From the NCBI GenBank assembly GCA_016185725.1, contig JACPNA010000023.1, forward strand, positions 1-41,539: a stretch of DNA of 41,539 nt, written 5' to 3'. Made by a program: the position numbers and the translations under genes. The notes beneath the pieces are model-generated. The model did not search any database, was not told where the DNA came from, and worked only from the letters and a program-made list of their open reading frames with translations. The stretch comes from Candidatus Woesearchaeota archaeon. GTDB lineage: Archaea > Nanobdellota > Nanobdellia > Woesearchaeales > GW2011-AR9. Position 1 is the stretch's first letter, and each line of letters begins with the position of its first letter. Below, piece after piece: positions 2,534 through 22,450 of this stretch.

Positions 2534-2678
2534 GCCAACGTCGCATAACTCGGTATTGCGCAGGTCTTGAATATAACCAATAACTCCAGTTAACCTGTCC
2601 CGTTAGGGATTCCCAGTTCAAATATTGACGTTCGAGCGACAATGCTCCGAACGTCAGTGAGAGAGTCTGGGCGTTGGC
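2534..2678 (+). ncRNA. Candidate structured RNA with own promoter (strand uncertain)
   Basis: This GC-rich island sits in very AT-rich surroundings. A terminal stem GCCAACG (2534-2540) / CGTTGGC (2672-2678) closes four further helices: CGCA 2542-2545 / 2557-2560, CAGGT 2561-2565 / 2593-2597, TCCC 2598-2601 / 2606-2609, and a 9+3-bp hairpin 2626-2637 / 2644-2656 with one bulged C. A TATA-like box (TTTATAAAAT, 2501-2510) lies about 28 bp before the 5' end of the terminal stem, so plus-strand transcription is favoured. Hallmarks of 5S, SRP and RNase P RNA are not visible. Read on the minus strand, the TCCC hairpin is followed by GTTAAC, as in the element at 22157-22184, so a relic of an IS200/IS605 right end (omega-RNA-like) is an alternative. 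Confidence 0.4.
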
Positions 2679-2746
2679 GCTCATATTTGTTTACTCGATT
2701 TTCTCCCCAGATACATTTAAATACAAAATTAATCTTATCTTTATAG

Positions 2747-11176: not shown

Positions 11177-11196
11177 ATTATTAATATTAAAAAAAA

Positions 11197-11376
11197 CGCC
11201 CTCACGGAGATTTGAATTCCGTAATTAACACTCACGCATTAATTTCTCCGGTTACAGGATTATTACAATATCCTTTAGATATTACCGCAATCCCGTGTCC
11301 TATTTGCCTAATCCCTTCCGCAGTTCTCTTTTGATTGAACTTTTCGTAAAAGTTCACCAGGCTAGACTATGAGGGC
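11197..11376 (-). tRNA. tRNA-Arg(GCG) with three introns
   Basis: Four exons on the minus strand, 11376-11357, 11303-11285, 11260-11246 and 11216-11197, join into a 74-nt tRNA. The acceptor stem is perfect (GCCCTCA / TGAGGGC), with D-arm GTCT/GGAC, anticodon stem CGGGA/TCCTG, loop TTGCGGA (anticodon GCG), T-arm CGGAG TTCAAAT CTCCG and G73. CCA is not encoded. Intron 1 (53 nt) is in the D-loop, intron 2 (24 nt) at canonical 37/38, intron 3 (29 nt) at the T-stem/T-loop border. Introns 1 and 2 show bulge-helix-bulge geometry with 3-nt bulges (GCCT/AGGC and TTGC/GTAA central helices). The intron 3 motif is relaxed (CCG/CGG plus AATTAA/TTAATT). An 8-nt T-run follows the 3' end. Confidence 0.9.
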
Positions 11377-11432
11377 AATATCTCTTTAAAAAGCTAGTTT
11401 CTTTAAAAAATTACCTTATATTTATGAAAAAA

Positions 11433-12218
11433 TCACTTCTTAATCTCTGCTTCACCAGGCAAGAATCTGATGATATCATCCAGATCTCCTTCTTTCAGTT
11501 TAGTCCGAATTTTCTTAGCAAGAGAACTCTTCTTCTCTTCACCAGGCATCACCACAACATAATGCGTTGTCTTCTTAGAAACCACTGCCACCGGTCCGGA
11601 AATAACCATCCCATCAACCACCCCAATAGCATATTCTAATTTTGGATGAAAAAAATTCTTCTTGCCATAAATCATAAAACTTCCCTTGTTGATATACTCC
11701 CCAGATTTAGCCTCCTTACTCACCTGCTCGGGTAACACCGAAAATACTTCTGCTGCACTATGCCCCAACTTCCATGCCTTCGAATAAACCCCCGTCGCTT
11801 GTGCTGCTTCTGAGATAGTATTCTCCGAAGCATTCTGCCCATTTTTCACCACAAAAAACGGCGACCCAGGAGCATCGGTATGCAATACTAAATCTTCCTT
11901 GTCTAAATGCTTCTTGATTATAATTTCATTAGTAGTTGCATCTTTTCCACCAATACACAAAAAATCATCCGAAGAAAAAAACCAATGAAATTTCTCATAC
12001 CATTCTCTTTTTCTGTCTTTCTTCCGCTTTTCTTCTCTTCTGGCCATCTCTTCTTCTAAGAATTTTGACTCCTCTTCCCATAACATAGCTAACTTCTTTT
12101 TACTCTCTTCTAACGCCTTCTTAGCTCCCTCTAATTTTTTCTTTGCCTTTTTAGCCAACTCAAAATAATCTCCGGCATTTTCCTCTACAGACTTATTAAG
12201 ATTAATTTCAATCTCCAT
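11433..12218 (-). CDS. NFACT-R domain protein (C-terminal Rqc2/RqcH part only)
   Basis: The 261-residue protein starts with a Lys/Glu-rich coiled coil (about residues 15-80). The NFACT RNA-binding domain follows (WFFSSDDFLCIGGKDATTNE, near 88-107; LVLHTDAPGSPFFVVKNG; SKAWKLGHSAAEVFSV). Full RqcH/Rqc2 proteins are about 550-700 residues and begin with NFACT-N and HhH domains, absent here. Rqc2-type proteins bind stalled 60S/50S-peptidyl-tRNA complexes. A split or reduced version in which NFACT-N is encoded elsewhere is possible. The start ATG and a complete end are present, so this is not a truncation within the window. Confidence 0.85.
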   Translation of the reverse strand: MEIEINLNKSVEENAGDYFELAKKAKKKLEGAKKALEESKKKLAMLWEEESKFLEEEMARREEKRKKDRKREWYEKFHWFFSSDDFLCIGGKDATTNEIIIKKHLDKEDLVLHTDAPGSPFFVVKNGQNASENTISEAAQATGVYSKAWKLGHSAAEVFSVLPEQVSKEAKSGEYINKGSFMIYGKKNFFHPKLEYAIGVVDGMVISGPVAVVSKKTTHYVVVMPGEEKKSSLAKKIRTKLKEGDLDDIIRFLPGEAEIKK

Positions 12219-12303: not shown

Positions 12304-12762
12304 CTAACAATTTCTAATATTCTCTACTACTAATGCCTTCTCCGCACAAACCTCTTCTATTTCTGAAAAAATAACCTTAGGAATAAACTTGATTTGCCTA
12401 ATATTCCCAACCGTATTATAATTATACCCCACAGTTCCAAAATAATTTCCCGCCTTAATAATTTTCGCTCCATTCAACTCCTTACTTTCTGAACTCTTTG
12501 TTCCAATAATATTAACCACTAACCCCTCTACTTTGATATTAACTCCATTTTCCAATGTAAATTTAACTTCCTGAGTAGCTTGATTAAAACAAATTTCATC
12601 TTGACCACCGATAACCGCCCATTTCATATTAATATCAATCGCACAGCTTGCTTCATCCTCCACTTGCGCTTTTGCAAAATTCATCACTCCGCTCGCTACC
12701 GCTACCGCGAACGAAACCAGCATAAACCCAATCATCAACGGCGTAATCGCCTTCTTATTCAT
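12304..12762 (-). CDS. Pilin-like secreted protein
   Basis: I start this at the third ATG, giving MNKKAITPLMIGFMLVSFAV. This is a short basic leader followed by a long hydrophobic helix, as in archaeal type IV pilins and archaellins. The remaining about 120 residues are beta-rich with four to five Cys (SCAIDIN, DEICF, EEVCAEK, IRNC), suggesting disulfides. The ATG overlaps the stop of the upstream DUF504 gene by 8 bp (ATGAATAA), so the three genes 13656-12304 form one operon. An upstream in-frame ATG (12777) would add five residues. The exact pilin class is uncertain. Confidence 0.65.
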   Translation of the reverse strand: MNKKAITPLMIGFMLVSFAVAVASGVMNFAKAQVEDEASCAIDINMKWAVIGGQDEICFNQATQEVKFTLENGVNIKVEGLVVNIIGTKSSESKELNGAKIIKAGNYFGTVGYNYNTVGNIRQIKFIPKVIFSEIEEVCAEKALVVENIRNC

Positions 12763-13213
12763 TTTTAACTTCATCATGAACTCTCCAAAACGGTTTACCC
12801 TTATGCATCAATTCTAATACCCTATGTCCAGGAACAAATACCTCTCTCCCATTTTCATCAAACAGAATAATAAACCCCTTTTCAATTTTTGCAATTTGAT
12901 CTCCCCGTAAGAAGACATGCTGTTTTTTTAAATTATCAAAATACTTGATGTGAAACAAATGTTTCTCCGGATGCGTATGTATTTGATGTAATTGTTGGTG
13001 TATCTCTTCCTCCGTTTCCTTCAAAGGATCAAATTCTTTATAAATCGTTCCGGAAAAAGTTAGTATTGCCATTCCCACAACTAAGCTAATTAACGGATTT
13101 TCCAGATACGGCAATTCTCCTATACCTGCCCAAACCCCCGCCCAAAAACAAATCATTCCTATTGCTCCTAATACCGCCCAAAAATATTTTTTCAAATTTT
13201 CTTTAATAATCAT
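12755..13213 (-). CDS. Membrane-anchored MJ1316/DUF504-like protein (copy 2)
   Basis: Preferred start is ATG 13213 (152 residues), 2 bp after the stop of copy 1; a TTG at 13228 is also in frame. The N-terminus has two transmembrane helices (FWAVLGAIGMICFWAGVWAG and a second ending ILTFSGTIYKEFDPL). The C-terminus matches the MJ1316/DUF504 domain: HIKYFDNLKKQHVFLRGDQI, then FVPGHRVLELMHKGKPFW. The domain is annotated as an RNA cyclic-end recognition domain in other archaea and is usually soluble. A membrane-tethered version is unusual. It is followed by the pilin-like gene with overlapping stop/start. Confidence 0.7.
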   Translation of the reverse strand: MIIKENLKKYFWAVLGAIGMICFWAGVWAGIGELPYLENPLISLVVGMAILTFSGTIYKEFDPLKETEEEIHQQLHQIHTHPEKHLFHIKYFDNLKKQHVFLRGDQIAKIEKGFIILFDENGREVFVPGHRVLELMHKGKPFWRVHDEVKNE

Positions 13214-13215
13214 TA

Positions 13216-13656
13216 TTATAACTTCCAATAACTTTTTTCATTTTGTATCACTTCAATAACTCTATGCAACGGCACAAAAAACTCCTCTTCTCTAGTATCA
13301 TGCTTAAAAACCAATGCGCCTTTATCCATATGTTTAAGTCTATCCCCTTTAATTGCCATTGGTTCTTTCTGCGTCTTATCCTTATATCTTATTACAAATT
13401 CCTGTTTTCGAGGATGTTGTGCAATATAATTAATGACATTCGTAGCTGATTTTTCAATACTTCCCAGCGGATCAAACTCCTTAAAAATTGCTCCAGAAAA
13501 CGTGAGAATGGCAAATCCTATAAACAATAAAATCCAATCATCAGCAATGTAGGGTATCTCATATAAGCCCTCCCAAATACCTCTCCACGCCAAAATTCCT
13601 CCCACTGCTACTACTAACGACCACAAAAAATGCCTATCTTGTTCTCGCAATACCAT
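13216..13656 (-). CDS. Membrane-anchored MJ1316/DUF504-like protein (copy 1)
   Basis: The 146-residue protein is built like its downstream neighbour. Two membrane helices come first (FLWSLVVAVGGILAWRGIWE; DDWILLFIGFAILTFSGAIF), then the conserved hinge KEFDPL. A DUF504-like domain follows with VIRYKDKTQKEPMAIKGDRL and FFVPLHRVIEVIQNEKSYW. Copies 1 and 2 share GxGxFKEFDPL-type and VPxHRVxExxxxxxxxW motifs, so they arose by duplication. It is the first gene of a three-gene minus-strand operon; the region upstream (13657-13779) is shared with the divergent gene at 13780. Confidence 0.7.
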   Translation of the reverse strand: MVLREQDRHFLWSLVVAVGGILAWRGIWEGLYEIPYIADDWILLFIGFAILTFSGAIFKEFDPLGSIEKSATNVINYIAQHPRKQEFVIRYKDKTQKEPMAIKGDRLKHMDKGALVFKHDTREEEFFVPLHRVIEVIQNEKSYWKL

Positions 13657-16318: not shown

Positions 16319-16438
16319 AGCCCCATGAGGGATTTGAACCCCCAACCTCCTGATAACCCGAATATTTTTTCTTTTGGAATTATATCATCCAATAGTGGCT
16401 TTACAAGTCAGGTACTCTAGCCACTGAGCTACTGGGGC
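16319..16438 (-). tRNA. tRNA-Thr(TGT) with a 47-nt anticodon-loop intron
   Basis: Minus-strand exons 16438-16402 and 16354-16319 form a cloverleaf. Acceptor is GCCCCAG / ATGGGGC (7:66 mismatched), D-arm GCTC/GAGT, anticodon stem CCTGA/TCAGG, loop CTTGTAA (anticodon TGT), T-arm GGGGG TTCAAAT CCCTC, U73. The intron lies at 37/38. The splice motif has 3-nt bulges TAA and TTA and central helix CTTG/CGGG with two G-U pairs. G1-C72, C2-G71 and U73 fit archaeal tRNA-Thr. Confidence 0.9.
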
Positions 16439-22365: not shown

Positions 22366-22450
22366 AGCCCCGGTCGAGACTTGAACTCGAAACCTCTTGA
22401 TTTCTGTAGATATATACAAGTCAAGTGCTCTACCATTGAGCTACCGGGGC
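22366..22450 (-). tRNA. tRNA-Thr(TGT) with a very short (about 13 nt) intron
   Basis: Minus-strand exons 22450-22415 and 22401-22366 give a perfect acceptor GCCCCGG / CCGGGGC, D-arm GCTC/GAGC, anticodon stem CTTGA/TCAAG, loop CTTGTAA (anticodon TGT), T-arm TCGAG TTCAAGT CTCGA, U73. The predicted intron is 22414-22402. TGTA/TACA can pair across it, giving a bulge-helix-loop rather than a full bulge-helix-bulge. It is the second TGT-anticodon tRNA-Thr in the window; the first is at 16319. Confidence 0.85.

Follow-up and report, generated by a model that had tools for sequence, protein, structure and literature searches.

A tRNA-Arg(GCG) gene interrupted by three introns lies on the minus strand of the window (the whole 41,539-nt stretch of DNA analysed) at positions 11376-11197, and its presence is confirmed. 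We consider it very likely that this locus is functional and that this Woesearchaeota genome has no other gene for tRNA-Arg(GCG). In the pathway we propose, the gene's own archaeal promoter would give rise to a precursor containing the 180-nt interrupted tRNA, and the splicing endonuclease EndA would cut both ends of the three introns at bulge-helix-bulge (BHB) motifs or relaxed variants of them (19/20, 37/38 and 53/54, standard numbering). RtcB would then ligate the exons into a 74-nt tRNA reading CGC and CGU. EndA and RtcB genes are both present in the genome. The locus is one instance of a wider pattern in this genome, whose tRNA genes abound in introns.

Architecture of the interrupted gene

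The gene consists of four exons and three introns, all on the minus strand, and the intron lengths given in the preliminary description were correct. Exon 1 (11357-11376) supplies the 5' halves of the acceptor stem and D-stem and the D-loop as far as G19, and is conserved in about 20 genomes of the family. Intron 1 (53 nt, 11304-11356) enters the D-loop at 19/20 and is missing from the relatives with a continuous gene. Exon 2 (11285-11303), which carries the anticodon GCG at 11288-11286, is followed at the canonical 37/38 site by intron 2 (24 nt, 11261-11284), which is missing from the congener G001. The 3' half of the anticodon stem, the variable loop and the 5' half of the T-stem are found in exon 3 (11246-11260), and intron 3 (29 nt, 11217-11245) interrupts the T-arm at 53/54. 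Exon 4 (11197-11216) provides the T-loop, the 3' halves of the T-stem and acceptor stem, and discriminator G73. A TATA-like box (TTTTTTAAA, 11402-11410, minus strand) is situated approximately 26-34 nt upstream of the gene, and most orthologues have one at a similar distance. An oligo-T run directly 3' of the gene (11189-11196, minus strand) is a likely termination signal.

Joining the exons yields GCCCTCATAGTCTAGCCTGGATAGGACACGGGATTGCGGATCCTGTAACCGGAGTTCAAATCTCCGTGAGGGCG, a standard 74-nt cloverleaf with anticodon GCG and discriminator G. All four stems are paired (7, 4, 5 and 5 pairs, G-U counted) and the conserved bases are kept. ARAGORN called tRNA-Arg(gcg) only with all three introns removed, partial removals producing either nothing or a wrong call, and an unbiased enumeration of BHB-like introns returned exactly the four-exon splice as its best solution. 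The locus also scored 36.1 in an intron-aware scan of 367 kb of the genome, versus 31.9 for the best reversed-sequence control. Together with the relatives discussed below, these results bear out the earlier claim of a three-intron tRNA-Arg(GCG) that splices to a 74-nt cloverleaf.

The unspliced gene was missed by both ARAGORN and Rfam. The lack of a call from standard tRNA finders, and an intron 3 site that no other parsed orthologue shares, might favor a decaying or insertion-disrupted pseudogene, with CGC and CGU decoded by another tRNA. We rejected this explanation as extremely unlikely, since the spliced stems are all paired with conserved bases intact, the promoter-like box and T-run are retained, two of the three intron sites are also occupied in orthologues, and the genome's sampled tRNA genes mostly show the same kind of interruption. 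A further argument against it is that no other copy was found; the preliminary description had named an intact copy elsewhere, combined with no spliced product, as refuting. The exon 1 and exon 4 patterns match this locus alone in the genome, and no other Arg(GCG) occurs among the tRNAs recognised elsewhere in it. A functional tRNA-Arg(GCG) should also be needed, because CGC and CGU make up 39% of the Arg codons in the window's longer open reading frames.

Splice junctions and orthologues

All three junctions sit in BHB or relaxed BHB motifs, as judged by register, slide and shuffle controls. Introns 1 and 2 had been described as textbook examples, and with respect to their 4-bp central helices this was accurate. 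Intron 1 has a perfect central helix (GCCT/AGGC, 4/4 pairs), but its contiguous inner helix is just 2 bp, which makes it less of a textbook case than described. Intron 2 fits the hBHBh' geometry with 4/4 central pairs (TTGC/GTAA), but its computed minimum-energy fold prefers a competing register over this helix. Intron 3, whose junction had rightly been called relaxed, is of the HBh' type, forming three of four central pairs and a 9-bp inner helix but lacking an outer helix. When the introns were shuffled in place, the fixed junctions acquired a motif of equal or better quality with P = 0.0016, 7.5e-5 and <5e-6 for introns 1, 2 and 3, respectively. In minimum-energy folding of the full precursor, the central helix is not the preferred pairing for either intron 2 or intron 3.

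The T-arm could conceivably be restored by another route, with introns 1 and 2 removed as described and the T-arm insertion leaving through other junctions to give a slightly different T-arm. The incomplete central helix and missing outer helix of intron 3 are compatible with this, as is the competition between the T-stem and the intron 3 motif in computed folds. We nevertheless regard it as very unlikely, given that only the 53/54 junctions restore the G53-C61 pair, a 7-nt T-loop and the 74-nt length of the relatives, that the motif is so rarely matched by shuffled sequence, and that tRNA-Leu(TAG) has a comparable predicted junction. Two specific placements were tried and rejected. An intron at 59/60, the T-arm site of tRNA-Arg(GCG) in relatives, was discarded because TTCAAATC is uninterrupted in exon 4, and shifted intron 3 junctions would break either G53-C61 or the length of the T-loop. 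Excision of intron 3 at 53/54 draws its support from this genome and from the probable 53/54 intron of tRNA-Leu(TAG) (79 nt, contig L013 of the same genome), because none of the other tRNA-Arg(GCG) orthologues parsed has an intron at this site.

An exon pattern search of 49 family genomes matched 22, of which 19 gave clean parses based solely on exon sequence and stem pairing; intron boundaries were set by the exons, and BHB pairing was left out of the parse. The automatic parse failed on G016 and G009, the latter being resolved by hand as a three-intron gene, and the G012 locus appears to be another isoacceptor. Introns are present or absent as whole units and form a mosaic across the family, ranging from none in one genome (G057) to three in five (G000, G049, G051, G054 and, by hand, G009). 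The 19/20 intron was found in 13 parsed orthologues, this genome counted.

These comparisons provide strong evidence that the introns of the family are BHB introns, the type that EndA cleaves, because registers set by the exons pair, slid registers pair less, and helix partners change together. At the exon-defined register, central helix pairing was 100% at 19/20 (n=13), 95% at 37/38 (n=14) and 94% at 59/60 (n=8), compared with 2-69% at slid registers in the same orthologues. Compensatory changes convert GCCT/AGGC to GCTT/AAGC, and TTCA/TGAA to TTCG/CGAA.

Relatives also confirmed the exon boundaries independently. Two genomes from other families of the same order possess a continuous 74-nt tRNA-Arg(GCG), identical to the spliced form at 59 of 74 bases without gaps. 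The sole congener compared, G001, has a 30-nt intron at 19/20 only, and its gene adjoins the same RqcH-like gene as in this genome. In the window, this neighbor (11433-12218, minus strand) matches archaeal RqcH only over the C-terminal part (model positions 380-641 of 645). No relatives turned up when one of the window's proteins was searched against viral contigs.

Introns across the tRNA gene set

Rfam recognises eight tRNAs in this genome, which is 97% complete, and between 3 and 42 in its relatives. Our intron-aware scan, covering 36% of the genome, recovered 17 tRNA genes above control, with 17 distinct anticodons and 32 introns after one spurious gap in a Ser variable arm was discounted. 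ARAGORN accepts the spliced forms with the expected isotype. A T-arm intron is present in 12 of the 17 genes, at 59/60 in ten of them. Besides Arg(GCG), three introns were found in genes on other contigs of the genome, those for Leu(TAA) (L197, 2842-3083), Ile(GAT) (L198, 13893-14117) and Arg(CCT) (L193, 14138-14359). The resulting density of about 1.9 introns per sampled gene is approximate, because the junctions are predicted, motif quality entered into the selection, and two further Thr genes in the window, each with a single intron, were picked up by Rfam alone. Strict hBHBh' geometry is seen in few of the 32 introns; their motifs are mostly relaxed, and most T-loop introns have no inner helix. 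Ordinary annotation thus misses most tRNA genes in such genomes, which can bias estimates of completeness as well as conclusions that tRNAs are absent or that an organism depends on a host.

Other tRNA genes were observed in passing. A predicted tRNA-Ser(TGA) at window positions 2534-2679 (plus strand), with introns at 37/38 (20 nt) and in the T-loop at 59/60 (43 nt), is called by neither ARAGORN nor Rfam. Two genes on the minus strand of the window (16319-16438 and 22366-22450) both read Thr(TGT) and are interrupted by one intron near 37/38; in the former, the acceptor stem is mismatched at its inner end. Two contig ends (L002, 73-145, and L004, 1501-1573) carry almost identical tRNA-Val(CAC) genes without introns, which are probably one gene at an assembly break.

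Neither multi-intron tRNAs nor D-loop and T-loop introns are new in themselves. In the Thermoproteales, tRNA genes average 0.84 introns, and Pyrobaculum has at most three per gene, with 71 introns in the 46 tRNA genes of P. calidifontis (PMC8450103). As in that order, a single gene here can hold as many as three BHB-type introns, and both canonical and non-canonical sites are used; unlike it, the host is a DPANN woesearchaeote with one single-unit EndA that does not have a CSL-like loop. The Asgard Atabeyarchaeia and Freyarchaeia have introns in 92-95% of their tRNA genes (PMC11291895) and, in a likeness drawn from published description, are similar in that few tRNA genes escape interruption, more than half have several introns and many insertion sites are non-canonical. 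Within DPANN, multi-intron tRNAs have already been listed for Nanoarchaeum (N. equitans) and ARMAN (PMC4033280). However, N. equitans has an (alpha-beta)2 enzyme and split tRNAs, whereas no beta subunit was found here, and ARMAN-2 has an epsilon2 enzyme with an ASL loop, whereas no fused multi-unit EndA was found here. Archaeal introns in the D-loop and T-loop have been described before (PMC6379350), and permuted tRNAs of Thermofilum pendens have their junction at 59/60 too (PMC3978253). The suggestion that the D-loop and T-arm positions might be new for DPANN is therefore right only in part: introns in both loops are common in this family, and in tRNA-Arg(GCG) the 53/54 site sets this genome apart from the other parsed orthologues. 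We found no report on Woesearchaeota tRNA introns in the open-licence papers searched, a scope outside which most subscription journals fall. The testable novelty is instead the mismatch between these introns and the enzyme.

A single-unit splicing endonuclease

In Archaea, the density of tRNA introns and the splicing endonuclease type are considered to evolve together. The genome encodes one EndA, of 214 aa, composed of one N-terminal and one catalytic domain, in which the catalytic Tyr/His/Lys columns are invariant. Its closest named relatives come from Woesearchaeota and Nanoarchaeota MAGs (at most 87% identity), and the DPANN assignment made earlier is therefore right. By sequence, the nearest solved structures are 3iey chain A, whose partner chain is named NEQ261, and M. 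jannaschii 1a79. Single-sequence structure prediction of an orthologous EndA gave a mean pLDDT of 43, and the model was discarded.

The preliminary description anticipated a broad-specificity endonuclease and proposed that its type be identified. The need to tolerate non-canonical introns holds, but the expected type of enzyme was not found. No second EndA-like gene or beta subunit was detected in the 97% complete genome with Pfam, the NCBIfam beta model or a family profile, and nearly all of 40 relatives likewise have no clear second gene. EndA is a single unit, and no fused two- or three-unit form (epsilon2 or alpha'2) was found. An insertion at the CSL site, before the LSLIE/LSLLEA segment, is absent as in M. 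jannaschii, whereas A. pernix has an extra stretch there. In gene content, a single catalytic subunit gene, EndA corresponds to the alpha4 type and would assemble as a homotetramer.

According to reviews, only (alpha-beta)2 enzymes with a CSL or epsilon2 enzymes with an ASL remove relaxed introns efficiently (PMC6379350, PMC12397907). The introns of this genome themselves argue against strict hBHBh' specificity of its alpha4-type EndA. Taken with the rule in the reviews, a single EndA that has no CSL in a genome with relaxed introns leaves two explanations: either the enzyme may reach broad specificity by another route, or a partner too divergent to be recognised may have escaped detection. 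For the former, we judge the chances evenly balanced that an EndA from a single alpha gene, with neither CSL nor ASL, removes relaxed introns from the D-loop, anticodon and T-arm across nearly the whole Woesearchaeota tRNA set; a Lys-rich N-terminal extension, or a short-loop lysine at the CSL site, may replace the loops. If so, a single-gene EndA would break the accepted rule by which an (alpha-beta)2 or epsilon2 enzyme is required for relaxed tRNA introns. A weak correlation links the N-terminal extension to low numbers of detectable tRNAs (rho -0.46, p 0.01, with no correction for kinship), and we do not rely on it. A dense intron load (32 in 17 sampled genes) alongside what is seemingly the simplest enzyme type makes a clean, testable exception, and much of the family probably shares this combination.

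Finally, two adjacent small genes in the window (12755-13656, minus strand) have weak matches to the MJ1316 domain, below the curated cut-off. As MJ1316 is associated with recognition of RNA cyclic-group ends, it is possible that this gene pair is linked to the RNA ends left by EndA.
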